DNA of 31,278 nucleotides from a virus: positions 1 to 31,278 of IMG/VR virus record IMGVR_UViG_3300025927_000021; one strand, written 5' to 3'. Position 1 is the first letter of the stretch. The number at the start of each line of letters is the position of its first letter. Made by a program: the position numbers and the translations under genes. This document shows positions 1,937-24,751 of the stretch, in pieces. Below the pieces are notes generated by a model. That model was not told the DNA's origin. It saw nothing but the letters and a program-made list of their open reading frames with translations, and ran no database searches.

Positions 1937-2169
1937 GCGTTGACTGGGGGTACCCAGGGTCGCAATTTACCTACTCGTCGATGGGGTGAAAATAGCGTTT
2001 CTAATTTGCCAGCGATTTATACACTCTTAGTGTATACGTTTCGTTTCCTGACTCAATACATTCTCGATTTTCATTTTGAAGGCTTAGGAAGCTAACCTAT
2101 CGAACGGATGTTCCCTTTATGGGCGGCTACCTGGGCTTACCTACAGGAATGGCAAAGAGCTTCCGCACA
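1937..2169. other. Non-coding stretch with repeat copy and palindrome
   Basis: No gene with a plausible start is seen here. It holds the second copy of the 24-bp repeat (1959-1982), a small CTGGG/CCCAG hairpin just before it, and a perfect 8-bp dyad TATACACT CTT AGTGTATA (2018-2036). The half site TATACACT recurs at 2437-2444, between the DnaA box and the promoter of the gene at 2529. The shared half site suggests that one regulator binds on both sides of the iteron block. One CCTACAGG motif lies at 2140-2147. Confidence 0.5.
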
Positions 2170-2206
2170 GGGTCAGATAAGAAACGACGAAGTCGTTTCC
2201 TGACCC
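2170..2206. other. Long bulged stem-loop beside the iterons
   Basis: The outer stem GGGTCAG (2170-2176) pairs with CTGACCC (2200-2206). The inner stem GAAACGAC (2181-2188) pairs with GTCGTTTC (2192-2199) around GAA. The four bases ATAA (2177-2180) bulge on one side only. All 15 base pairs are perfect. It lies 6 bp before the first iteron, so it may be part of a replication origin rather than a terminator. Confidence 0.7.
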
Positions 2207-2211
2207 TTAAT

Positions 2212-2343
2212 CGTGAGTTTAACGTGAGTTTGGTATGAGTTTACCGTGACTTTGGTGTGAGTTTGCCGTGAGTTCGTGAGTTCGTGAGTTTGACCCTCCA
2301 AACTCACGATCACATAACCCCTGGTCACAGCCCTAAACTCACT
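2212..2343. repeat. Iteron array, candidate replication origin
   Basis: Copies of CGTGAGTTT or close variants start at 2212, 2223, 2234, 2245, 2256 and 2267, exactly 11 bp apart, then at 2275 and 2283 (8 bp apart). Inverted copies AAACTCAC lie at 2300 and 2335. Six sites in phase with the DNA helix place the bound proteins on one face. Known iteron origins of plasmids and phages have this layout together with a DnaA box, which is present at 2425. An operator array is the alternative. A short open frame on the minus strand across the repeats is an artefact of the repetition. Confidence 0.75.
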
Positions 2344-2424
2344 GTTGCACCCGCAAGGGCCGGGCGAGCAATACGTATTTGAATAACACAATAGTCACCG
2401 AAAGTTCTATTGTTCTAAGCTGCC

Positions 2425-2433
2425 TGTGGATAA
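2425..2433 (-). promoter_or_regulatory. Perfect DnaA box
   Basis: TGTGGATAA is the reverse complement of TTATCCACA, the strongest known DnaA-binding sequence. It lies 82 bp after the last inverted iteron. The combination argues that host DnaA helps open this region. An identical box at 7924-7932 lies next to another promoter, and a third at 20705 is inside a coding gene and probably fortuitous. Confidence 0.65.
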
Positions 2434-2464
2434 CTCTATACACTGGAGGCTAGGGAGAAGTTGC

Positions 2465-2493
2465 TTGACTTGACTGACTGAGTGTGGTACAAT
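2465..2493 (+). promoter_or_regulatory. Near-consensus promoter for the winged-helix gene
   Basis: TTGACT (2465-2470), a 17-bp spacer and TACAAT (2488-2493) give an almost ideal SigA-type promoter. RNA would start near 2500, leaving a leader of about 29 nt before GTG 2529. The half operator TATACACT at 2437-2444 lies just upstream. Confidence 0.85.
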
Positions 2494-2528: not shown

Positions 2529-3023
2529 GTGAGCACACGCATTACTATCCTCAAACACATGAGCCGTAAAGATGGCCCTGTAACTAAGGCCGATCTAATA
2601 GACCTTACAGATAAGGCTGAAGGTACAGTTAGAAACGCTCTAGCTCAATTGACTAGCAATGGCTGGGCAGTAGAGAATAACAGTGAGTATCGTATCACGC
2701 CGGCTGGATTGGAAGCGTTAGAGAGTAAGGCGGCTTTCAGATTTAGGGACGCTCCAAAGATCAAGCCACGAGAAGCTATCATTGACCAGATATTCGATTG
2801 GGATTCTATTCAAACCAGCAATGCCTGTAGGGGAGTATTGGATTCTAAGGTAGAAGATGCGCCGTGGATTGATTTGCTTGCACCCATCGTGATTGTCTAC
2901 CTCAAAGCTAAGGGCATTGAATTCCCTGCAATCACACTCGCCGTCGCCGAAAATAGCAATGATGAAACGCTCGAAATGATCTACGACGATTTCGTCAACA
3001 AGCTAATGGACAACATTGCCTAA
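2529..3023 (+). CDS. Winged-helix DNA-binding protein beside the iterons (164 aa)
   Basis: Residues 1-70 read as a winged helix-turn-helix: a first helix (RITILKHMSRK), PVTKADLIDLTDKAEGTV as the helix-turn-helix, then NALAQLTSNGW and a short wing (EYRITPAGLEALE). This resembles small transcription factors and some replication initiators. The remaining 90 residues are not recognised. The GTG start follows AAAGG at 2517 and the strong promoter at 2465. Because it lies directly after the iteron array and DnaA box, it may be the protein that binds the iterons, either as an initiator or as a repressor. This is inference from position. Confidence 0.75.
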   Translation: MSTRITILKHMSRKDGPVTKADLIDLTDKAEGTVRNALAQLTSNGWAVENNSEYRITPAGLEALESKAAFRFRDAPKIKPREAIIDQIFDWDSIQTSNACRGVLDSKVEDAPWIDLLAPIVIVYLKAKGIEFPAITLAVAENSNDETLEMIYDDFVNKLMDNIA

Positions 3024-3428: not shown

Positions 3429-4069
3429 TGACTAACATCATCTTCGATGACCTGGAAATTGACCACAGTGACAAGCTCACTGATCCTGCCGCTTTTTGCA
3501 AGCGGGTCTATACGAAGGCTGAAGAGCTTCGTACTATCCTCCGCACTAACACCTCGGTAAGTGACTACATTGCTCGTCTCCCCAAAGAGACGGCTGATTT
3601 CACTGAGTTTGCTGTCCACGAAGATGCCATCTATGAATTGGCTCAGACAATGCCACTCGTCTCACTGCCTGATTTGGTGAAGCGGATTCAGAAGCTGGCA
3701 AGAGACGTCGAGAATCTGATCGACTATCGTGCGACACAAGACCTGGCTAACAACCACGGGCATTTGGACAAGCAGACTACGCACGAACAGTACAACCGTT
3801 TGCGTGAAATCTTCAACCAGTATGTCCACGCCATGAAGGTGCTCGGTAAGTTCGAGGCACAGCCGCTTCCCAATATGCCGGGCAACTACGGGAAGCCGGT
3901 TGGTCTCCCTCGTTACGTGTTCCTATTGGACGGCGAAACTGAGTGGATGAGAAACCCAGTTGCGGTCGCCAAAAAGCTGGGTATTACCCAGACGAACTTG
4001 ATGGACGTTGTGGATTACGTCAAGTCCAACCCAAACTGCGGTTGCAAGGTTGAGGAGCTTTCAAAGTGA
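3428..4069 (+). CDS. Hypothetical helical protein (213 aa)
   Basis: Not recognised. ATG 3428 overlaps the previous stop (TGATG) and has GGAGG (3416-3420) 7 nt upstream, so the start is well supported. The first 130 residues look mostly alpha-helical, with many acidic and Lys/Arg residues. The C-terminal part (NPVAVAKKLGITQTNLMDVV) reads like a small helix-turn-helix, and the end has a CGC pair before the last few residues. A DNA-binding role is possible. Confidence 0.7.
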   Translation: MTNIIFDDLEIDHSDKLTDPAAFCKRVYTKAEELRTILRTNTSVSDYIARLPKETADFTEFAVHEDAIYELAQTMPLVSLPDLVKRIQKLARDVENLIDYRATQDLANNHGHLDKQTTHEQYNRLREIFNQYVHAMKVLGKFEAQPLPNMPGNYGKPVGLPRYVFLLDGETEWMRNPVAVAKKLGITQTNLMDVVDYVKSNPNCGCKVEELSK

Positions 4070-4206
4070 AGATTTGCCTCATCTGCGGCTACGTCCCAAA
4101 CTGCCCCTGTAGGTACTGCGAAGAGTTGATCCCGTTCGATCAGCACATTTGCCAGCCCGAACTTCCGTTCACTGAAGAGATCGAATACAATGGAGAAGAA
4201 GTCTGA
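4066..4206 (+). CDS. Cys-rich miniprotein (46 aa)
   Basis: The protein starts MKICLICGYVPNCPCRYCEE. Cysteines C4, C7, C13, C15, C18 and C29, with H27, suggest one or two bound zinc ions. GTG 4066 overlaps the previous stop (GTGA) and has GAGGAG (4052-4057) 8 nt upstream. The stop overlaps the next ATG as TGATG. It is one of several Cys-rich miniproteins in this phage. The C-terminus is acidic (TEEIEYNGEEV). A CCTGTAGG motif at 4106-4113 is inside the gene. Confidence 0.75.
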   Translation: MKICLICGYVPNCPCRYCEELIPFDQHICQPELPFTEEIEYNGEEV

Positions 4207-4526
4207 TGGAACTAACAGACATACATTGGGTGGCTGGATTCCTCGAAGGTGAGGGTGCATTCAAGCTAGCCAAAGTTGGAAACAAGACATACATTCGTAT
4301 CTCTGCTGCATCTACTGACGAGGATGTTATCGAGAGATTGGATGGCTTGACTATCCACGGCACAATGCATGGCCCTTATCAGTACAAGAGCAATCTGGAA
4401 TACTGGACCTGGGAAATTGCCAAGCAAAAGCACGTTGCAGCATTGCTCATGACAATCTATCCGATCATGTCAGAGCGTCGTCAGAACAAAATCTCCGAAC
4501 TACTCACTCACTGGAAAGTAAGCTAA
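4206..4526 (+). CDS. Single-motif LAGLIDADG homing endonuclease (106 aa)
   Basis: Residues 8-17 (WVAGFLEGEG) are a LAGLIDADG motif; the terminal acidic residue is the expected metal ligand. At 106 residues it is shorter than I-CreI-type single-motif enzymes, and it would have to act as a homodimer, cutting a pseudo-palindromic site. It is freestanding rather than inside an intron or intein, and has been integrated into the operon with TGATG and TAATG couplings at its two ends. A close paralogue lies at 12720-13070: both share WVAG-x-x-EGEG, a GPY segment, DVAALMMTLYP-like residues and a WDNRQ/SERRQ segment. Confidence 0.8.
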   Translation: MELTDIHWVAGFLEGEGAFKLAKVGNKTYIRISAASTDEDVIERLDGLTIHGTMHGPYQYKSNLEYWTWEIAKQKHVAALLMTIYPIMSERRQNKISELLTHWKVS

Positions 4527-12248: not shown

Positions 12249-12666
12249 TTTCAAGATCAACTTCGGAAACGCCAAGCAACTAACGCCATTTGAGTTGCCG
12301 CCCGAGGGACAATACACCCTCGTGATTGCGGACTACAAGTGCAAGGAAGCAAAGAACCCGGAATCCCGTGCAAAGGGATTCAACATCGCTATCGTTTTCA
12401 ACGTGGCCGATGACGACTATCCGGGCGCAAAGCTCTGGCACAACTTGTGGGTTGCTTACGAGAACCCCTGGGCTGCCAAGTATTTCTTCGACGCACTTAC
12501 GGGCAAAGACCTGGAAGATGACAACCTCGATGTGACAGATGCTGACTCATTCATCGGACAGGCAGTTGGTGCGGCTCTGATCCATGAGTCGTACGAGTAC
12601 AACGGAGAGACGAGGAAGAAGCTGGTGGTTGCTACGCCAGATTCGTTCTACAACGTTCCGTTCTGA
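12241..12666 (+). CDS. DUF669-like protein, probable recombination partner (141 aa)
   Basis: The PPEGQYTLVIADY beginning, the KLWHNLWV strand and the AKYFFDALTG helix fit the DUF669 family found beside phage recombinases. It is thought to act as a single-strand DNA-binding partner; that role is known only for some homologues. GTG 12241 overlaps the ATPase stop and follows GGAAGGAAA. A strong hairpin ends the unit at 12673. Confidence 0.75.
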   Translation: MPDFKINFGNAKQLTPFELPPEGQYTLVIADYKCKEAKNPESRAKGFNIAIVFNVADDDYPGAKLWHNLWVAYENPWAAKYFFDALTGKDLEDDNLDVTDADSFIGQAVGAALIHESYEYNGETRKKLVVATPDSFYNVPF

Positions 12667-12719: not shown

Positions 12720-13070
12720 ATGGAAATCAAGGACCTATATTGGGTTGCTGGATTGATAGAGGGGGAGGGCTGTTTCTTTTTATATGAAAGCGGCAATTCT
12801 TGCCTTAGATTCTCCATGTCCCTGACAGAGAAGGCTGTGCTAGAACATGCACAGAAGATAATTGGACTTGGAACGATAAGGGGACCGTACCATAATAAGA
12901 AGCGCACTAAACCATTTTGGGTTTGGGGAATCTCTAGAGATAGAGATGTTGCTGCTTTAATGATGACCCTCTATCCTCTAATGTGGGATAACAGACAAGA
13001 AACTATTGACGATCTGCTAGAAATTTGGAGGTCTAAGCCTGTCGTCAAGCATAGGAATACGGTGCCATGA
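12720..13070 (+). CDS. Second LAGLIDADG homing endonuclease (116 aa)
   Basis: Residues 8-17 read WVAGLIEGEG, a LAGLIDADG motif. It is paralogous to the product at 4206-4526 (same motif spacing, GPYHNK versus GPYQYK, DVAALMMTLYPLM versus HVAALLMTIYPIM). ATG 12720 has GGAG 7 nt upstream, and the stop overlaps ATG 13067 of the primase-helicase (ATGA). The sequence is visibly more AT-rich than its neighbours (a run encoding CFFLYES), a sign of recent acquisition. It has landed just after a terminator-like hairpin, between the recombination and replication genes. Confidence 0.82.
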   Translation: MEIKDLYWVAGLIEGEGCFFLYESGNSCLRFSMSLTEKAVLEHAQKIIGLGTIRGPYHNKKRTKPFWVWGISRDRDVAALMMTLYPLMWDNRQETIDDLLEIWRSKPVVKHRNTVP

Positions 13071-14770
13071 ACACGCTCAGTTTCTATTTAGACACTCTAT
13101 ACGATGGTCTAAGTGGCTTTGTGTATTCGCCTGTCAAAACGGCAACGAGCTTTGAGCAACATTGGTTTGACTATCCGAGAGAGAAGCAAGCTCTTATCGA
13201 CCACATCTCCAATGGCGGAGGCGACGTATACATATCGCCTGCCGTCTATTCGGAGAAGCGTGCAGTCAAAGAGTCGATTAAGACGCTACAGTGTGTATGG
13301 GTAGAGTTCGACGGGGTTGAGCAGATTGATTTCCAATCTGTGTCAGAACCTACCATGATAGTCCAAACCAGCTTTGCTTCGCACGTTCACTGTTACTGGC
13401 GAATCGACAGGGACACTCATCACGTCGTAGAGAAGATCAACAGGGAGCTTACCTATTACCTACACGCTGATAGTTCAGGCTGGGACGCAACGCAATTGTT
13501 ACGTCCTCCAGAGACCATTAACCACAAGCATAACTTGCCGGTTGTTCTATCAAGTCACACCCTTTCCGCCTATACGGTTGGAGCCTTTGATTTCCTCCCC
13601 ACAATATCAGCTCCTGCCGCTTCTACCGTCTTGGTGGATGAGCTAATACCTACAGCGCAGGTCTTGGCTAACAACACACTGCCGCTCAAAGTTATGCGGA
13701 TGGTTAAGAAGGAAGAGCCAGTCGAACCCTACAGGTCCTCGTTTCTCATGAGGTTAGCCCATGAACTAGCGGAAGAGGATTTGACGCATGTAGAGATAGT
13801 CTCGCTTCTATACGAAGCAGACGGCCGCATCAAGAAGTACGACGGTAGAAACGATCAACTGGTCAGGCTGTCACAGATAGCAGATCACGCTATGCTTAAG
13901 CACATAGCGGAGGATACTGTCATCATCTACACGCCAGAGCAGATTCTCAAATACGTCGAGCAATTGCAGTGGATACTGCCTCAGTGGCTCCACGCTACTG
14001 GTCAGTTGGTAATTAGCTCGGCCCCAGGTGTAGGTAAGACTCAGTGGTGTATGCAGCTAGCATATAGCTTAGCAACTGGCCGCTCGTTCCTAGGGATGGC
14101 TAATAGCTCGAAGTACAAGGTCTTGGTTCTAAGCTTGGAAATGGACAAGCAGTCGCTGAAATACATCTTCGAGCATCAGCAGAACTCATGGGAGGAAACA
14201 CCGCTCTTTGATATCGTGGATGAAACACAGAGCCTGTCTAAGTACGAGGACTTGATCGAGGAACGAGAGACGAACGTTCTGATCGTAGACTCACTGACAG
14301 AGCTACTCGATGACGAAGAGGAAACTAGCCCAGGGAAAGAGGCTAGGCGGATTATGAAGTGGTGCAGGAAAATCCGCCGTCGTTATGGACTGGCTGTCAT
14401 CCTGATCCACCACAACAGGAAAGCAACAGAAGGAAACAAGAAGCCTAAAGGACTGGCCGACTTGGCTGGTTCCTTCCAGTTCGCTAAGGACACAGATACC
14501 GTTCTGCAACTCTGGGAAGATTACAAGGGGATTGAACTCTCCGGAGTCAAAGTTCGCTTCGGTCACAAAGACGCATTCATGCTGGCTCGCAGCGGCGACC
14601 TATGGTTCACAAGGAAAGAAAGTGCTAGTAACCCATCAAGACCAGCTCCAGCAAATCAGGAACGAGATCAAGGGAAGCAACAGAGTAGCGATCGACACGG
14701 AGACCAACTTCACCGAGATATACGAGGAACGATATCTTTTAGGCGTAGCCCTAAAGACGGACCACAATAG
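13067..14770 (+). CDS. Primase-helicase (archaeo-eukaryotic primase plus RecA-like helicase, 567 aa)
   Basis: The N-terminal half looks like an archaeo-eukaryotic primase: VEFDG (79-83), ASHVHCYWRID (104-114) and DATQLLRPPETINHK (140-154) correspond to motifs I-III. The C-terminal half is a RepA/DnaB-type hexameric helicase with Walker A APGVGKTQ (319-326) and Walker B LIVDSL (405-410), and IHHN (447-450). The fusion would prime and unwind at the replication fork. The last 50 residues are Ser/Gln/Arg-rich and overlap the DNA polymerase gene by 149 nt, so the tail is probably overprinted rather than part of the helicase fold. A frameshift in the sequence cannot be excluded. Confidence 0.88.
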   Translation: MNTLSFYLDTLYDGLSGFVYSPVKTATSFEQHWFDYPREKQALIDHISNGGGDVYISPAVYSEKRAVKESIKTLQCVWVEFDGVEQIDFQSVSEPTMIVQTSFASHVHCYWRIDRDTHHVVEKINRELTYYLHADSSGWDATQLLRPPETINHKHNLPVVLSSHTLSAYTVGAFDFLPTISAPAASTVLVDELIPTAQVLANNTLPLKVMRMVKKEEPVEPYRSSFLMRLAHELAEEDLTHVEIVSLLYEADGRIKKYDGRNDQLVRLSQIADHAMLKHIAEDTVIIYTPEQILKYVEQLQWILPQWLHATGQLVISSAPGVGKTQWCMQLAYSLATGRSFLGMANSSKYKVLVLSLEMDKQSLKYIFEHQQNSWEETPLFDIVDETQSLSKYEDLIEERETNVLIVDSLTELLDDEEETSPGKEARRIMKWCRKIRRRYGLAVILIHHNRKATEGNKKPKGLADLAGSFQFAKDTDTVLQLWEDYKGIELSGVKVRFGHKDAFMLARSGDLWFTRKESASNPSRPAPANQERDQGKQQSSDRHGDQLHRDIRGTISFRRSPKDGPQ

Positions 14771-16601: not shown

Positions 16602-17016
16602 TCCAGGCACTTCAACAGGCTGGGCCAACATAGACGTAAACGACAAGAAGATCACGCTGGGTAAGTTCGGAATCTCGAAAGGCGATAGCCTAACGGATAT
16701 CTACGAACACGTCCAAGCGGCCGATATAATCGTTTACGAAGGTTTCTGGCTAAGGCCAGATAAGGCAATGAAAGGGGACTTTAACTGGCAAGATAATCCG
16801 GCTGAGAAAGCGATTGGCTCTTTGCTGACTCTTTGTAAGCTGAGTGGAAAGACAAAGATTGTAAAGCAGCAACCTTCACAGCGTGTACCTGGCTTCGCAT
16901 TTGCCGGATTGAAGTATGTACCGAAGGCGAAAGGAAAACACTGGCAAGACGCTCTGGCTCACGCTGTTTTTTATGCGGTATCTGTACTTCATGCCAATCC
17001 TGTGCGGACACCCTGA
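16582..17016 (+). CDS. RuvC-like Holliday junction resolvase (144 aa)
   Basis: The RNase H-fold signature LGIDPGTSTGWA (D7), VYEGFW (E53) and HWQDALAHA (H120, D123) match the catalytic acids of the RuvC family. Phage members cut branched DNA before packaging or during recombination. GTG 16582 has AGGAAG about 10 nt upstream. This is the last plus-strand gene, and its 3' half is antisense to the C-terminal part of the whiB gene. Confidence 0.88.
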   Translation: MRILGIDPGTSTGWANIDVNDKKITLGKFGISKGDSLTDIYEHVQAADIIVYEGFWLRPDKAMKGDFNWQDNPAEKAIGSLLTLCKLSGKTKIVKQQPSQRVPGFAFAGLKYVPKAKGKHWQDALAHAVFYAVSVLHANPVRTP

Positions 17017-17272
17017 GTATGTTGCGTCTTAGCTCACCTACAGGGATGCCAGTTACCATCGAAGAGACTCTTATCTTTTCTCGTTCGCTATAGGTAGTGC
17101 CGCCCCAAACTCCGGTTTCGCCGTTGAAAATTGCCCAGTCAAGACACGGGTCTTTGACTGGGCAATTTACGCATACACGGATGGCACGTAAATCGTCTTC
17201 AATTGTTGCCAGGTAGAAGTTATGTGGAAGAGCTCCCCGGCAAGCAGCCTCTTTCATCCATGTTCTGTCCAT
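16781..17272 (-). CDS. WhiB-family Fe-S transcription regulator (163 aa)
   Basis: C11, C34-V-N-C37 and C43 are the four ligands of the WhiB [4Fe-4S] cluster, followed by the GVWGGT turn (54-59). WhiB-like proteins bind SigA region 4 and redirect host transcription; phage copies are known to interfere with host WhiB function. The core is only about 85 residues; the other 78 residues overlap ruvC in antisense and are not conserved family sequence as far as I can see. ATG 17272 has AGGAG just 2 nt upstream, a tight spacing; M6 is an alternative. Isolated on the minus strand, it may have its own promoter, though I cannot identify one confidently. Confidence 0.88.
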   Translation of the reverse strand: MDRTWMKEAACRGALPHNFYLATIEDDLRAIRVCVNCPVKDPCLDWAIFNGETGVWGGTTYSEREKIRVSSMVTGIPVGELRRNILRVSAQDWHEVQIPHKKQREPERLASVFLSPSVHTSIRQMRSQVHAVKVAALQSLSFHSAYKESAKSQSLSQPDYLAS

Positions 17273-17504: not shown

Positions 17505-20500
17505 TTACTGGGGTAAATTGAGATAAGTACGTGCGTCTGCGTCAGTTGGCACATGATACGGGTCCACATAGCCGTGCTGATAGTTCGCACCTGGCAGCCG
17601 TTGTGCGGCGTTGATTGCTGCGGTCGGTGTCGCAAATTCCCCGATCACTTCTCCAGTCATCTTGTTGGTGACTCTGTAAGTGAAGTTCTCCGTTGTGGAG
17701 ATGAAGTACGCATCCTGGCCGTAGTTGAATTCCTTCAACGGGTTATCAATTGCTTGATCCCTGTTGTCTTGTTGCTGTTGCATCTGCTGTTGTGTACTAA
17801 CTCGTCGGATCGGCAAACCGGCACCCAACAGGCTGTCACTTAGCAGACGCTCTCCGATTGAACGATCACCCTGGTTGAATTCCTTGGCGATATCTCCAGC
17901 CAGAGGAATCTTGTCCATTAGGTAATCGTAGGTGGAGTTGATTCTGCGGTCATCATGGAATGTGCGGCCAGCTGCTAGTTCTGCAGGGATTAGAGCTAGA
18001 GGATTCAAATTGGAGATTACGTTCTGCGCTAGTCCCTGAGCAGTTCCACCACTGGACATAATGTCCAAGGAGCCTGTAGGTAGAATGTCACCTGTGATAG
18101 ACCACGGCTCTTTTCCATCACCAATAGCGTAGCCCATGTTCCGAATCCACTTCGGGATGTTCATGTTGTTGAAGTCATCCGCTCCCGAACCGTCATTGTA
18201 CTGCATGAAACGGTCGGTCTTTGCGAAGTAGCGAGGGTTGGTGTAAAGCTGCTCGATAAGAGTCGGAGCGGCCTTACGCATGTAGGTGTAGAACGGGAAA
18301 GCCAGCGATTTCATACCCTGCTCCCAGGGCATAAGAGCGGAGTAATCGAACTTGTAGTAGTTCATCCTCCACAATGCAGCGTCTGTTGCACGCCGCTCAA
18401 TCTCGTCTAGGTCACGCATCCCCTTACCGTATAGGGCTTTTGCTTCATCCCTGAATGCGGTAACGAAATGGGTGAAACGGCCGATTGTCTCTCTTGTATC
18501 TGAGACGTTCCTGAGTACGTTTCCAGTGCCTCTTACGGCTCGTTGTGGGATTTCACCAGCAGACAGTGTTTGGTAGGTGTTCAGATCAGTACGATAGAAG
18601 CCAGCGTTGGCGTTCCGTTCGTAAATCTGCATCATCTCTTTGTAGTTCTTTTCCAAGCCTGGAACAATGTCGAAAACTGCCCGTCTACCAGCCTGGTTAA
18701 GACCCCACTTCTTAGCTACTTCGTAGTAGTCATCAGGATTAACGTCATCCAGCAGACCCATGAAAATATCGCCGATCATGTTCCTCGTATGGAAGCCCAT
18801 ACGTGGCAACGTGAGCAACTGCTTCATCTTCGTTGTGATCTTGGCTAGGTTTCTACCGATAATGCCCCACTCCGATGAAGTCCAAGATGACATACGGTCA
18901 TACATCTTGGCTACTTCGTGGAACTCTTTGGGCATGTAGTAGTTGCGACCCTCTCCAACAGAGGCTCTTAGGCTGGCCTCTAGACGAGCAGGATCAGCAG
19001 CAATTAGTCCGCCCTTTTCAGCGGCATCCTTCGATAGCTTACCAATTGTGCCATCTGTCACAGAGTAGCTGCGAACGAGGTCATTGTAGAACAGAGCACG
19101 GCTAGCATCTCTACGGGACTTTAGCATCCGGTAGTCTAATGCAGCAAATGCGTTCTCAACTGGCTTCAGTCCGTCAGCTTTGGCTTTCGCTATTGTGTAC
19201 TTTCCTGGTCCCTGGAAGGACTTGTCTTTGAATGCGTCTTTTCTGCCGTTCTTGAACTTGGTACGAGCGTCTCTTGTTCCACCACGGTTGAAGATGTAGG
19301 CGTACCCATCTTCCTTCGTAGCATTGGGGTGTCGTGATCCGTTTGTGATTTCATCTGCGAAGATCGAGTCGTACTTAGCCCGAAGGTATTTAAGAGCATC
19401 GTCCATTCGTTGTGAACCCAACGAAGGGAGGTTCTTTTCCAGTGCCTGTTGCAGTTCAAACGTCTCTTGCCTTGTGTATTTCCGTGCCCATTCTTTCAAT
19501 TCGTCACGGAACTTGTTCATAGGCTCAAAGCCCAAAGCGGCCGCTCGGGTGCCTTTCAGACCAAGTAGACCGGAGAACATTCTCTCGTAGATTGACCCAT
19601 CAAGGGCGTTTTGAATACTTGGGAAAGTAGTGCTCAACTTGCTGTTTGCCCATGAGAAGGCTTTACCAACTGGTTTGAAAGCGTAGTCACTTCCGAAGAG
19701 CTTAACTCCAGGCGCCCTGTAGGTAGGGTTAGATGCTGACTCAAAGACAGCCTGCCTAATCTGCTCAACCTGGGGATCGTACTTCTTGCTGACAATCTCG
19801 TTGAAGAGGTTCTTGTATTCTTTCTCGGCAATATCTCCCCTGGCTAGAGAGGCGAGGATATCGTCTGTTGAAGCTCCCGCAGGTACCTTTCCAGCATTTT
19901 CCAGCTTGGTACCTAGTGCTTGCCAGAAGTCGTCGAAATCCTGTCCCTTTGAACGGAAGAAGTCAATCGTTTTTGAAGAGATAGTACCAGCACGCTGGAA
20001 TACACGATCAACACGACTGTTCGTAAGGTCAGTCATGGCACGACGTACTTCTTCGCCAGTATTGCTAGCGACCAAAGCAGGCCATGCTCTGTTGTTCAGG
20101 AGCCTAGTTCCACGACTACCACCTCTGTTTACTTCCAGAGCGGAGTTAGCAAATAGCCGGTCAGTAGAATCTGCAACTCTCTGGAAGAGAGCATTGGGGT
20201 TCTGTTCGTAGAACGGAGCGTTGTGGATCAGTCCAGATGTTGCGTGGAAGTTAGCAGTTTCATGCTGTGCAGCCTCGACCATCACACTCTGTAGACGATC
20301 TGCCGTAGCTAGCTCGTCAGTCCCTCTAATGAGCTTGGGAACAGAAGGCATAAAGACGTTGGTAGGATCAACCACCATCTCGCCTGTGAAACCAACTAGC
20401 TGTGAAAGAGCTTGTTCTAGGGCTGGGTGAGAATCCTCTAGGTGAGAAAGCTGCTGCCCAATCATGTCAGTTGGGTTGTTCTTAATTGCTTCGTAAACGT

Positions 20501-21122
20501 CTCCGAAGCCCGTCTTGTCTTTGCCTTCAATACCACGCAGTAGACCTCCACCAAGGGTGGATAACTGGTCACCGATATTAGACCAGCCTTGATGCTCTTC
20601 TGGCAATTCAGCTAGAGACTGCATACCTTCGTACAACGCATATGCAGGACGGTTGATTAGATCGAGGCCACGACCAACAATAGAACCAGAGAAACCGGTA
20701 CCATTATCCACAAGACCAGCACCACCCGTAACAGCATTCCACACATCACTGTACCAAGGACGTTCCGTAGCATCTGCTCGCTCGTTGGCAGAGTTGATAG
20801 CTTCTTGTTCCTGAGCATTCTGGTTGTATTCAGTGGTTAGCTGAGCATAGGCATTCTGCAATGCATCCTGACGTGCAGGAATAGACGACCTACTACCACC
20901 GCCGCCTGGACCTTGGCCCATCATTCGGTTATAGGCAGTGGTAGCACTCCGAGGAACGTAAGATGCGCCTCTAGCTACATCTACTCCACGGCCTCTTACA
21001 TTGGAGTGCGTTGTCGGCCTATATGTAGGCGTACGTGCTCGGTTACCAGTTCGGTTACCGACTTGCCTATTGAATGTAGCAGCTGCTCTTGCTGCTCCCG
21101 CTCTAGCTCTTGCGGAAGGCAT
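17505..21122 (-). CDS. Giant virion protein, possibly internal/ejected, LPD38-like region (1,205 aa)
   Basis: The N-terminal 80 residues are basic and disordered (PSARARAGAARAAATFNRQV). The middle is helical. Near residues 770-960 lies LLTLPRMGFHTRNMIGDIF, then an ETIGRFTHFVTAFRDEA segment and PFYTYMRKAAPTLIEQLY. This order resembles the large polyvalent-protein domain LPD38, found in long phage proteins thought to be injected with DNA. The C-terminus has a Gln-rich run and a short beta repeat-like region. As the last gene of the structural operon it is probably an internal virion or ejection protein. ATG 21122 overlaps the stop of the 1,209-residue gene. The family match is from memory and needs a profile search. 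Confidence 0.7.
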   Translation of the reverse strand: MPSARARAGAARAAATFNRQVGNRTGNRARTPTYRPTTHSNVRGRGVDVARGASYVPRSATTAYNRMMGQGPGGGGSRSSIPARQDALQNAYAQLTTEYNQNAQEQEAINSANERADATERPWYSDVWNAVTGGAGLVDNGTGFSGSIVGRGLDLINRPAYALYEGMQSLAELPEEHQGWSNIGDQLSTLGGGLLRGIEGKDKTGFGDVYEAIKNNPTDMIGQQLSHLEDSHPALEQALSQLVGFTGEMVVDPTNVFMPSVPKLIRGTDELATADRLQSVMVEAAQHETANFHATSGLIHNAPFYEQNPNALFQRVADSTDRLFANSALEVNRGGSRGTRLLNNRAWPALVASNTGEEVRRAMTDLTNSRVDRVFQRAGTISSKTIDFFRSKGQDFDDFWQALGTKLENAGKVPAGASTDDILASLARGDIAEKEYKNLFNEIVSKKYDPQVEQIRQAVFESASNPTYRAPGVKLFGSDYAFKPVGKAFSWANSKLSTTFPSIQNALDGSIYERMFSGLLGLKGTRAAALGFEPMNKFRDELKEWARKYTRQETFELQQALEKNLPSLGSQRMDDALKYLRAKYDSIFADEITNGSRHPNATKEDGYAYIFNRGGTRDARTKFKNGRKDAFKDKSFQGPGKYTIAKAKADGLKPVENAFAALDYRMLKSRRDASRALFYNDLVRSYSVTDGTIGKLSKDAAEKGGLIAADPARLEASLRASVGEGRNYYMPKEFHEVAKMYDRMSSWTSSEWGIIGRNLAKITTKMKQLLTLPRMGFHTRNMIGDIFMGLLDDVNPDDYYEVAKKWGLNQAGRRAVFDIVPGLEKNYKEMMQIYERNANAGFYRTDLNTYQTLSAGEIPQRAVRGTGNVLRNVSDTRETIGRFTHFVTAFRDEAKALYGKGMRDLDEIERRATDAALWRMNYYKFDYSALMPWEQGMKSLAFPFYTYMRKAAPTLIEQLYTNPRYFAKTDRFMQYNDGSGADDFNNMNIPKWIRNMGYAIGDGKEPWSITGDILPTGSLDIMSSGGTAQGLAQNVISNLNPLALIPAELAAGRTFHDDRRINSTYDYLMDKIPLAGDIAKEFNQGDRSIGERLLSDSLLGAGLPIRRVSTQQQMQQQQDNRDQAIDNPLKEFNYGQDAYFISTTENFTYRVTNKMTGEVIGEFATPTAAINAAQRLPGANYQHGYVDPYHVPTDADARTYLNLPQ

Positions 21123-24100
21123 TACCTATGCTTTCTTCTTGCTAGAATCTTGTTCAGTTCACCACGGGAAGGAATACCACCGCCACCGCTACCCTGTTTA
21201 GACATTTTGACTCTCAGGATACCTTGCGCCAAGTTCTTGATATCTCTTGGTTGAGCTTGTCCTCTTGATGGCATTACACCTTTACGAGCGCCAACCATAC
21301 CTCGTGACATTGCACGACGTCCTTGACTTCCTCCGCCACCACCCTGGAAAAGATCAGGTGAGAAGATCGGCTCTTCATTAGTATCTGCCAAGTCAGTTGG
21401 AACTACGTCTCCACCATAGTCGTCTGGTAGCTCGGAAGGAATGATGTCGGGAACTGAGCCAAACAGGTCAGGGTTTCCGCCATTTGCGTCAGTAACCCGA
21501 GGATCATACGAGCGAGCAGTAGTAGTCATTGAGGCATTCTGAGAGCCTGTATCAGTAACTGACCGCTTGTAATTGGCAAAGTCTGCGTAGGGGCTATATC
21601 CACGAATGAAGTTGCGAACGTTGCCAGAGATGAAGTCGATCAGACGTGCTCGTTCACGTTCCTCCGGATCAACAGGAATCTGGTAGAACTGACCGCTAGC
21701 CGGTGTACCTCTGTTACCACTTGCATCTCGTGGGTAAGCATCCTCAAATGCCTGGTAGCTATTCGGCCCCTGGTTCTGCATTGACTGGATTAGGTCATCA
21801 CGAAGAGTACCGTTGTTGACGACTTGATTACGGATCAACTGATCGTAGATCGTCCCGCCAGTAATTGACCCCTCATCACTAATAGGATCGTCTGGTCCCT
21901 GATGCCCAGGAGTTAACGGATCATTGTCTCCTGTTAGAATCTGAGCCAGCTGTGAGTTAGCCATTTCACGAGAGATACCAGGTGCCTGTGGAGCAGCAGG
22001 TTGCTGTCCAGTTAATGCACCACCAACCTGATTGGCTGCATTGAGAAGCGTAGACAGGAAGCCACTCTGACTGTTGTTCAGAAGGTTGCTGATTCCTCTG
22101 CCAACATTCGTAGCATTTCCAGCCAGTTGCCGTAGATTCTGCGGATCTGGTTGAGGAACCGTGGGGTCTTGTGCAGGCAATTGACCCTTGAATCCAGCCA
22201 AACCATTGATGAGATTGTTCGGCATGATTTGCCGAGACATTCCCGGCCCACCACCAGCTACTGCATCACTTCCCCAGTCTACAGTGCCCGGAGTTTCACC
22301 TACAGGTTGGCCGCTCGAATCAAGAAGCGGTAAACCCTGCTGCAATCTGATATGGTTCTGTTCAGCAATCGACTGGCCGCCGAATACATTAGACAAGTCT
22401 AGTGTATTTAGAGCAGGTTGCGTAACTGATGGCTTGCTAAAGATTTGTTCCTTAGCACTATCACCCTCGCCAGGCAATCCGTAAGGTAACGCATTTCCAG
22501 TCGGACGGCCGCCATTAGCTGCCGTTACGAATTGCTGTTCTCCACCAGGAATAGACGTAGACTGCTGTCTACCGACAATCTCGTCTGGATTGGGAGGAAC
22601 AAAGCCACCGTTAATGTTTGTAGTGACTCGATCCACTGTGGACTGCGGGCCAGGAGGCTGGATACCGGGGTAGTTACCCTGCATCTGCGAAGCAATCAGG
22701 TTGAGGATAGCTTGCGGAATCTGCGGCCGCTGAACAATCTCATTCTGATTGGGAGGAACGAATCCGCCAGTTGCATTTGTAGCAGCCCGCTGTGCAGTAG
22801 TCTGCGGCGGAGTATACCCCGGCATCTGAGATGCAATTACATTTAGAATGTTTTGCAGGTTAGGATTGGTAGACCCAGGAGGAACAATCTCATCTGGGTT
22901 AGGAGGAACGAATCCACCTAGTGCATTAGTGGCAGCACGATCTGCACTGGTTTGTGGCCCAGGAGCAATTTGTGACCGAACACTATCCGGAATATTCCAA
23001 CCACCTTGCCAGGGACTACGCTGACCGAAAGTAGGTTGTGGCGGAGCAGTTGTTTGTGTTCCAATAGGGATTCCTGTAGGTGTTACGACAGGAGGATTGG
23101 AGACATTTCCGTTAACTACAACATCCGGGTTATCAGGATCACCAGGAACTGAGCCGGGTTGAACTCCGGGCGGAAGATGCCAAGTACCCATTGAAGCTGG
23201 GTCCCAGCGTTGCTGAACATTCGGATCATTGTTGTCACGAACGTCTGAAACTTGACCACTGTTACCGCCGCTACCACCACTCTGTTGCTGCATAGCTTGG
23301 AGCTGGGCAATTAGTCCCGCTACTCCGCCAATATTAGCACCAGTACCTTGTGCGCCTCCACCACCTTGACCCCCGTTAACTTGAGCCATTACAGCTTGCG
23401 CCCGAGGATCATTCCTCATATTGAGGATTCTGTTAAAGAATTGGGCAGTGTTTTGGAAGCCCTGATCCGTGTAGTTGTTGCCACCAGAAGCATTGGGGTT
23501 CTGATAGTCGTATGCCTGGTTCATCAGCATAGCGATGGGATCAGTGTCCGGCATCATCAACGGGTTATCTTCGTTCCAGTTAGGATCACGATAACGCCGC
23601 TCGACTGTATCCGTGGTGGTGGGATCGTCACCTGGAATCCAGCCAGAACCTGCCGTATACTGCTGTTCTTCTACGTTGAAACGGGGAGTAGCTTGTGAAA
23701 GCCAGTCCTCATTGTTTCCTTCGATCTTGTCCGCAGCTGCAAGCTGACCTGAAGCATCTTGCTGTGCTTTGGTCAGGTTAGCGAGAATAGTTTGTGGATC
23801 AGTTCCTACGTCAAGCTGATCCTGGACGAACTGTTGGACTTCATCCCACTGATCTTGCGGAATACCTAGAGACTGTAGGTATGCAGGGTCAGTGAACTGA
23901 TCCATCGTATCAGACTGAGCGCCAGGATAGAGCGCATTCCAAATATCCTGCGACTTAGTTCCTGATTGCTCTACGTATTTATAGGCGTTTTTAGGATCAT
24001 TGAAACCGTATTGGTCTGTATCCCGAGGATCATCGGAAGAACCTCCCCCACCGCCTCCACCGCCACCATATCCGTGACCTCCACCACCTCCGCCACCTCC

Positions 24101-24751
24101 ACCGCCACCGCCAGAACCTGCGGTTGGATTAGCGATAGAAGCCATTAGACCATTGTAGTAGTCTGTTTGCGCCTGTTGTTCTTTGTCAAACCAAGCTAGA
24201 TCGGAAGCCAGGTTGGAATTGGCAGTACCTTCCATCTGCGTAAGACCGCCAGCATACGTGGACCAAATCGGGTCCTGTGCAGCCAAAGCTTGGTTAGGAT
24301 CGTTGGGGTCAATACTTGTACCATATAGCTGATGCATCCAATCAGCAGCATTGTCCGTGATATCTCCAATAGAGCTGTTGTAGTCTCCTTGGACAATCTT
24401 CTTGATGGCTTCGATATCAATTGGAACCTGCCCAACCATACCACTGATACCAATGATGGCCTGAATCTGAGTGGGGTCCATCCCCTCCTTTAGCAAGCCC
24501 TTAGCAATCAGAGCTTTGATTTCAGGAGTTTGTGGTAGACCTGCCAAAGTAGAAACAGGTGCTCCACCACCCCCTCCACCACCGCCACCTTGATTACCGC
24601 CGGAATTACCCATGCCCTGAGTAGAGGCAGCCTGAACTCTTCGGATGCCACCAGCAACATTTCCGATTTGTTGCGCCTGTTGCGCCCTCTTGATTACGGC
24701 GGCAATCTTTTGAAGCCTGATTGCTTGGGCCATGCTATACGGATCAGCCAT
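21122..24751 (-). CDS. Giant Gly/Pro/Gln-rich virion-type protein with repeats (1,209 aa)
   Basis: No family is recognised. Starting MADPYSMAQAIRLQKIAAV, the first 40 residues are an amphipathic helix related to one in the next protein. Two poly-Gly tracts lie near residues 52-63 and 211-238, the second interrupted by HGY. A proline-rich half contains three repeats of GGFVPPNPDEIV-type sequence, each preceded by an NILNVIASQM-like helix. The C-terminus is basic and Gly-rich (ELNKILARRKHR). The low-complexity architecture and the place in the late operon suggest an extended virion or scaffold-like protein. It starts 2 nt after the preceding gene's stop. Confidence 0.75.
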   Translation of the reverse strand: MADPYSMAQAIRLQKIAAVIKRAQQAQQIGNVAGGIRRVQAASTQGMGNSGGNQGGGGGGGGGAPVSTLAGLPQTPEIKALIAKGLLKEGMDPTQIQAIIGISGMVGQVPIDIEAIKKIVQGDYNSSIGDITDNAADWMHQLYGTSIDPNDPNQALAAQDPIWSTYAGGLTQMEGTANSNLASDLAWFDKEQQAQTDYYNGLMASIANPTAGSGGGGGGGGGGGGHGYGGGGGGGGGSSDDPRDTDQYGFNDPKNAYKYVEQSGTKSQDIWNALYPGAQSDTMDQFTDPAYLQSLGIPQDQWDEVQQFVQDQLDVGTDPQTILANLTKAQQDASGQLAAADKIEGNNEDWLSQATPRFNVEEQQYTAGSGWIPGDDPTTTDTVERRYRDPNWNEDNPLMMPDTDPIAMLMNQAYDYQNPNASGGNNYTDQGFQNTAQFFNRILNMRNDPRAQAVMAQVNGGQGGGGAQGTGANIGGVAGLIAQLQAMQQQSGGSGGNSGQVSDVRDNNDPNVQQRWDPASMGTWHLPPGVQPGSVPGDPDNPDVVVNGNVSNPPVVTPTGIPIGTQTTAPPQPTFGQRSPWQGGWNIPDSVRSQIAPGPQTSADRAATNALGGFVPPNPDEIVPPGSTNPNLQNILNVIASQMPGYTPPQTTAQRAATNATGGFVPPNQNEIVQRPQIPQAILNLIASQMQGNYPGIQPPGPQSTVDRVTTNINGGFVPPNPDEIVGRQQSTSIPGGEQQFVTAANGGRPTGNALPYGLPGEGDSAKEQIFSKPSVTQPALNTLDLSNVFGGQSIAEQNHIRLQQGLPLLDSSGQPVGETPGTVDWGSDAVAGGGPGMSRQIMPNNLINGLAGFKGQLPAQDPTVPQPDPQNLRQLAGNATNVGRGISNLLNNSQSGFLSTLLNAANQVGGALTGQQPAAPQAPGISREMANSQLAQILTGDNDPLTPGHQGPDDPISDEGSITGGTIYDQLIRNQVVNNGTLRDDLIQSMQNQGPNSYQAFEDAYPRDASGNRGTPASGQFYQIPVDPEERERARLIDFISGNVRNFIRGYSPYADFANYKRSVTDTGSQNASMTTTARSYDPRVTDANGGNPDLFGSVPDIIPSELPDDYGGDVVPTDLADTNEEPIFSPDLFQGGGGGSQGRRAMSRGMVGARKGVMPSRGQAQPRDIKNLAQGILRVKMSKQGSGGGGIPSRGELNKILARRKHR
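22579..22965 (-). repeat. Three degenerate coding repeats of about 51 residues
   Basis: Within the 1,209-residue gene the peptide block A-T-N-x-x-GGFVPPN-x-(D/N)EIV occurs three times, with DNA starts near 22579, 22735 and 22887, spaced about 150-156 bp. Two of the intervals contain an I-L-N-(V/L)-IASQM helix. The DNA copies have diverged (several silent and coding changes), so the peptide is being conserved rather than freshly copied. Confidence 0.7.

Follow-up and report, generated by a model that had tools for sequence, protein, structure and literature searches.

A candidate replication origin of helically phased repeats beside a winged-helix gene in actinophage genomes

In phage lambda the initiator O binds phased repeats at ori, as we propose here for another phage; lambda differs in that its iterons lie inside the O gene and host DnaB is used. 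In the plasmid RSF1010 (IncQ), RepC binds the iterons of oriV, RepA unwinds the DNA, and exposed stem-loops are recognised by RepB', which then makes the primer, as described in excerpts of PMC4234260. The same excerpts describe P4 alpha, pRN1 ORF904 and phage BIP-1, in which a primase-helicase acts at repeats or a stem-loop and a winged helix serves origin recognition (PMC4234260). Two further systems combine a small or phage-encoded initiator with a dedicated origin: PLE, where RepA_N is a small DNA-binding initiator acting with iterons in a phage setting (excerpts of PMC7145576), and the mycobacteriophage RepA prophage origins, where an actinophage encodes a helix-turn-helix initiator and the origin adjoins its gene (excerpts of PMC7157519).

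The locus described here departs from each of these. The winged helix of P4 alpha, ORF904 and BIP-1 is part of the primase-helicase, whereas here it is a separate protein, and the ORF904 helicase is of SF3 whereas the phage helicase is RepA/DnaB-like (comparison with the excerpts of PMC4234260). RepA_N belongs to a different family, and PLE, being a satellite, depends on proteins of ICP1 and of the host (excerpts of PMC7145576). Mycobacteriophage RepA is larger (320-350 aa), comes from temperate parABS phages, serves the prophage and is dispensable for lytic growth; its authors found no repeated motifs at the origin (excerpts of PMC7157519).

The locus lies in IMG/VR record IMGVR_UViG_3300025927_000021 (positions 1 to 31,278), and the window denotes this whole 31,278-base stretch. 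The early operon, which includes the replication genes, is on the + strand; the - strand carries the late genes. The attribution to an actinophage made in an earlier note on this DNA is supported by a WhiB gene (16781-17272; PF02467, E 2e-15) and by two whiB genes annotated in the relative MW202795.1. Side by side among the late genes (17505-21122 and 21122-24751, - strand) stand those of two proteins, about 1205 and 1209 aa long, that have no PHROG match at E up to 0.001. Two paralogous small genes (646-1008 and 1537-1866, + strand) lie upstream of the region in Table 1, each followed by the same noncoding element, GTCGCAATT...ACTCGTCGAT (about 1276 and 1959); they appear to form a duplicated gene-plus-control module.

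Table 1 Features of the candidate origin region and of the proteins proposed to act there
Feature	Position	Strand	Basis or remark
CCTACAGG octamer, 30 bp upstream of hairpin	2140..2147	+	word search
Bulged hairpin; candidate priming or assembly structure	2169..2207	+	folding as DNA
Six 9-bp direct repeats of CGTGAGTTT type at exact 11-bp spacing; candidate iterons	2212..2275	+	motif matching and simulations
Two more direct copies at 8-bp steps (2275, 2283), neighbours overlapping by one base	2275..2291	+	
Inverted copy, perfect	2300..2308	-	11-bp perfect inverted repeat with 2282-2292, loop 6
Element CATAACCCCTGGTCACAGC	2312..2330	+	contains CATAACCCCTGGT, common to G001; CCCTGGTCACAGC common, inverted, to G007
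Second inverted copy, AGTGAGTTT	2335..2343	-	
AT-richer stretch; possible unwinding element (weak)	2380..2439	.	AT content, 40-bp windows
Perfect DnaA box, TTATCCACA	2425..2433	-	exact match
Promoter-like TTGACT-17-TACAAT (sigma-70-like) for the early operon	2465..2493	+	
164-aa winged-helix protein; candidate initiator (or repressor)	2529..3023	+	GTG-started ORF
567-aa primase-helicase; candidate enzyme loaded at the origin	13067..14770	+	N half putatively AEP-type; C half DnaB/RepA-type helicase

The earlier note had drawn attention to six 9-bp repeats spaced exactly 11 bp, two more stepping by 8 bp, a pair of inverted copies, a perfect DnaA box, a preceding 15-bp bulged stem-loop and a winged-helix gene directly downstream. 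Each is found, with the correction that the stem-loop has 16 pairs. Two of the window's three perfect DnaA boxes lie elsewhere (7924 and 20704). Sites within one mismatch of CGTGAGTTT start at 2212, 2223, 2245, 2256, 2267, 2275 and 2283 on the + strand and at 2300 and 2335 on the - strand; the site at 2234, TATGAGTTT, has two mismatches and belongs to the 11-bp-spaced run of six (starts 2212-2267). In 1000 second-order Markov simulations of positions 2000-2528, the observed regularity was never reached at period 11 or at period 22 (0/1000 each). A span of 132 bp holds nine sites within one mismatch, whereas 60 whole-window simulations gave two at most. The number of matches in the whole window is unremarkable (12 versus a shuffle mean of 7.7; 9 of 100 shuffles reach 12). 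The signal is the clustering and phase of the sites and not their whole-window number. The window thus has direct repeats in helical phase, as an iteron origin does.

Divergent phages were reached through the conserved primase-helicase and SNF2-type helicase, and five of them cover the region upstream of the early operon. These are contig G001 (46.8 kb; primase-helicase 53% identical to that of the window), G007 (43.6 kb; probably complete, since its ends overlap by 123 bases), MW202795.1 (a circular genome of 42.6 kb from spring water; 42.7%) and G010 and G011 (38-39%; G011 with a 123-base end overlap). The region is also present, at about 97-99.8% identity, in contigs G002 and G003, which add no independent evidence; G012 and G009 end short of it. 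Region scans of the distant G017, G018, G020, G014, G025, G013 and G023 gave no clear counterpart of the array. A large repeat cluster in G022, a 62% GC relative, was rejected as a counterpart; it is a GTCACGGCCTCCGGCTCCGCCACG-type tandem repeat of >600 bp, 1.6-2.3 kb upstream of the SNF2-type helicase gene and unlike the window array.

All five relatives have, at the syntenic place, a hairpin, phased repeats and a small winged-helix-like gene, in sequences that differ. The gene order is conserved as well, the small winged-helix-like gene being followed by a protein of ~220-250 aa and then the SNF2-type helicase. Their repeats stand about one or two helical turns apart and are strong in four of the five and weak in one. 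G001 has an 11-bp array of CCAATGCAGAA with inverted copies (0/1000 simulations), G007 three 12-bp and two 22-bp repeats (0/1000 each), G010 periods of 11 bp (4/1000) and 24 bp (0/1000) and G011 a 24-bp period (0/1000). About 20 periods were tested per region; a control on the best of all periods (8-24 in the window array), confined to four genomes, was reached in 0 of 1000 simulations for the window, 1 for G001, 1 for G007 and 136 for MW202795.1. Because of this last figure the MW202795.1 repeats are weak evidence, though this genome is rich in DnaA boxes. In G001 the array is preceded by a likely homologue of the paralogous small genes and then a similar noncoding element.

The hairpin of the window consists of an 8-bp outer stem, a 4-nt bulge on the 5' side, an 8-bp inner stem and a 3-nt loop (-14.2 kcal/mol as DNA, z -6.6). 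A stable hairpin stands just upstream of the repeats in all six phages. In four, the outer stem of 7-9 pairs is followed by a bulge on the 5' side of the early strand (window 4, G001 2, G007 3, MW202795.1 4 nt) and an inner stem, again in differing sequences; the hairpins of G010 and G011 have small bulges on the opposite side. Bulged hairpins of this shape are rare in these genomes: a strict scan of both strands of seven genomes returned eight, three of them at these sites, and it misses the G007 hairpin, which has an extra unpaired base.

In six of six phages a single CCTACA[AG]G precedes the hairpin by 30-111 bp, always in the same orientation (in G011 as the CCTACAAG form), and no reversed copy occurs within 400 bp. 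The window has 17 copies of CCTACAGG against 0.8 expected from dinucleotides, for example at 2140, 2824, 4106, 5959, 7191, 7290 and 13728. There are 30 copies in G001, 27 in G007, 28 in MW202795.1 and 40 in G018; the word is also dispersed in G009-G011 and G023. Enrichment is slight in G012, G020 and G017 (3-6 copies) and absent in G022 (0), G025 (1) and G013 or G014 (2). Leading and lagging strands carry the octamer without bias in four genomes (53 versus 55), with median gaps of about 0.9-1.9 kb, and a literature search did not find it as a word.

DnaA boxes beside iterons are common in iteron origins but not universal. Perfect boxes occur in this region in three of the six phages: the window, where one stands beside the array; G001, whose sole perfect box in 46.8 kb sits 76 bp from the array; and MW202795.1, where both perfect boxes of the genome and three one-mismatch boxes fall at 34184-34440. 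The corresponding regions of G007, G010 and G011 have none. In the window the box lies within a stretch where the 40-bp windows starting at 2380 and 2400 are 62-68% AT, against 40-58% in the others. The promoter-like sequence that follows shares CTTGACTTGAC with a promoter in G001.

Pfam winged-helix models match residues 2-70 of the 164-aa protein, all below curated cut-offs (best E 1.9e-8), and the predicted structure has a winged helix at residues 1-66 (pLDDT 79-92 over residues 1-60); the C-terminal half was modelled with low confidence. A fold search with residues 1-76 returned MarR-like regulators (best 7wze_Y, Z 12.9, 75 residues, 2.8 A) and, among the matches, the pNOB8 centromere protein AspA (4rs8_B, Z 12.1, 74 residues, 2.9 A). 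The predicted fold is thus a generic MarR-like winged helix, a DNA-binding fold as in MarR/PadR-type proteins. RepC and other Rep family models gave no match at E up to 0.1, tblastn against 50,697 phage records gave none, and relatives sought in cellular genomes were not found. The G001 protein is 28% identical and the G007 protein is also related.

All seven phages inspected, window included, encode a small winged-helix-like protein near the beginning of the early operon; in MW202795.1 the gene lies about 1.2 kb from the repeats. The proteins fall into three groups: window, G001 and G007; MW202795.1 and G012; G010 and G011. Profile comparison with hhalign did not link the groups to a common ancestor (probabilities of 2.4, 0.8 and 0.2), which, over such tiny alignments, is not proof that they are unrelated. 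The proteins of G012 and G010, two of the six from relatives, have no Pfam match at E up to 0.1, and for groups A8 and A9 the term winged helix is a weak assignment, suggested by weak matches and by how the sequences look.

The early operon encodes a SNF2-type helicase, a Cas4/RecB-like nuclease, a Sak4-like protein, an SSB-like protein, the primase-helicase and a 609-aa DNA polymerase A, a set that amounts to a replisome. Two small LAGLIDADG-like endonuclease genes lie inside it (4206-4526 and 12720-13070, + strand; PF00961 E 0.005 and 3.5e-4, both below cut-off). The ORFs of primase-helicase and polymerase A overlap by 239 bp in different frames (14532-14770, + strand), as they also do in G001 and MW202795.1; the polymerase may start later than its ORF, or the overlap may couple translation. 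The helicase half matches RSF1010 RepA in structure (1olo_A, Z 22.1, 213 residues, 2.7 A), with the DnaB, G40P and T7 gp4 helicases tied within about 2 Z, and AAA_25 is present in 30 of 30 homologues. The N half is primase-like by PHROG (phrog_10514, E 5e-16). Pfam RepB_primase (PF16793) is found in 8 of 30 homologues (best E 1.3e-4) and not in the window's own primase half. D82, H108 and D135, which we take to be the AEP triad, are invariant in 30 of 30. Searched by sequence against solved structures, the primase half gave nothing meaningful; RepB' is absent among the structural matches listed for the primase-helicase, which are helicase domains.

Compared with RSF1010, the phage also has a polymerase A of its own, its iterons are 11-bp where those of RSF1010 are 20-bp, and its 164-aa protein has no sequence match to RepC and so is not recognisable as a RepC-family initiator. 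The likenesses, taken from excerpts of PMC4234260 and PMC4538821, are iterons, a separate DNA-binding protein as candidate initiator, a hexameric helicase resembling RepA in fold, a primase that is putatively of AEP type and hairpins next to the iterons. Against the same excerpts, primase and helicase are fused in one 567-aa chain in the phage, and one upstream hairpin stands where RSF1010 has ssiA and ssiB. The phage has a candidate counterpart for each RSF1010 part, an analogy in the way of working only.

The cumulative GC skew, which the earlier note had proposed as a check, has minima near the arrays in the four genomes measured (0.3-3.2 kb away) but not at them: 2832 (detrended 3484) for the G001 array at 3811, 36002 for the MW202795.1 array at 34344, 13798 for the G011 region at 12440 and 2509 for the G007 array at 42790 (circular, 43474). 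To the left of the array in the window, skew is positive over 2 kb on the strand of the early genes, which is not as expected for a bidirectional origin exactly at the array. Since the gene strand switches at the same place as the minima, GC skew was set aside as an independent origin marker.

The reading that we consider most likely, if with only slightly better than even confidence, is that positions 2140-2528 form a replication origin and that the next gene encodes its initiator. The candidate origin of the earlier note is strengthened because a syntenic layout is kept while its letters change, as expected of origin-initiator pairs, and because perfect DnaA boxes occur in the region in three of the six phages; on the other side, no known Rep family was matched and the fold is a generic MarR-like one. 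A regularity beyond chance, the rarity of the bulged hairpins and the replisome genes of the early operon also speak for an origin, while the offset of the skew minima, the lack of perfect boxes in this region in G007, G010 and G011, the weak periodicity of MW202795.1 with its more distant winged-helix gene, and a window primase half that does not match RepB_primase speak against it. From this arrangement we infer the following sequence of events. Molecules of the 164-aa protein would line up on the 11-bp-phased sites along one face of the helix, and the inverted copies may have an autoregulatory use. Aided by host DnaA where a box exists, the protein would open the AT-richer stretch beside the DnaA box, whereupon the phage's own primase-helicase would be loaded. 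The bulged hairpin, once single-stranded, may mark the primer site as ssiA and ssiB do for RepB' of RSF1010, and polymerase A would extend the primer. The hairpin-priming step is the least secure part of this scheme.

Because the winged helix is MarR-like, the main rival is a repressor-operator array, in which the 164-aa protein binds repeats upstream of its own promoter to shut off or time the early operon and replication starts elsewhere. We regard this as unlikely, yet it deserves serious weight: the array does precede the first early gene and a good promoter, and co-variation of binder and site is equally expected of a repressor and its operators. However, some 120 bp separate the nearest site from the -35 box downstream (2343 versus 2465), far for simple repression, ten phased sites are many, and the bulged hairpin and DnaA boxes are left without explanation. 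Nor were lysogeny genes found among the families tested in ten of ten records, none of which matches tyrosine integrase (PF00589) or serine resolvase (PF00239); an immunity or stoperator array was rejected on this count. The same survey weakens a partition function, as tubulin (PF00091) is matched in 0 of 10 records and ParA-type ATPase (PF13614) in 0 of 10 over cut-off, its two weak matches falling inside the primase-helicase. That the repeats are the parC- or tubC-type centromere of a plasmid-like prophage, with a winged helix-turn-helix protein such as TubR or AspA as the binding partner, is therefore very improbable in phages with no integrase, no sign of temperate life and no partner NTPase of the TubRZC or ParABS kind, even though R1 parC is an 11-bp direct-repeat centromere and pNOB8 AspA is among the fold matches.

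A packaging site (cos or pac), with a terminase subunit binding the repeats, gains from a late operon with a terminase gene that starts divergently a few kb away. The annotated large terminase of MW202795.1 (37710-39224) is 3 kb from its repeats, and contig G002 has a terminase-like ORF (labelled by eye) to the left of the window end. We still think it improbable: the repeats adjoin the early and not the late operon, the adjacent small DNA-binding protein is likewise an early-operon product, and the DnaA boxes would go unexplained. That the array is due to chance or is a functionless, decaying repeat fits the weak periodicity of MW202795.1, but is scarcely credible given the simulations and a layout kept in five divergent relatives.

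Returning to the origin with its adjoining initiator, iteron origins with winged-helix initiators are known as a general kind. New are the conserved layout, the exchangeable sequence and phages not studied in the literature searched. The undescribed initiator-origin pair of the earlier note therefore stands within that literature, and not as a new general kind. The papers searched on phage iteron origins with winged-helix initiators and on IncQ-like phage systems, subscription papers and preprints aside, do not describe the module. A more far-reaching proposal, which we consider doubtful, is that these soil and freshwater actinophages share an undescribed origin module. In it CCTACAGG, a bulged hairpin, phased iterons (with DnaA boxes in some), a promoter and an exchangeable winged-helix initiator would fire a fused AEP-primase/RepA-type helicase, placing RSF1010 logic in a lytic replisome. 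The same primase-helicase would recognise CCTACAGG, present in 17-40 copies in several of these genomes, both at the origin and elsewhere along the DNA.

If true, the combination of hairpin, helically phased iterons, winged-helix gene and early operon would provide a sequence-independent origin signature for phages known only from metagenomes. It would offer a small test system in which initiator and repeats have been exchanged several times and the helicase-primase has been kept. A further consequence would be a connection between lytic actinophages and IncQ-type initiation of replication.
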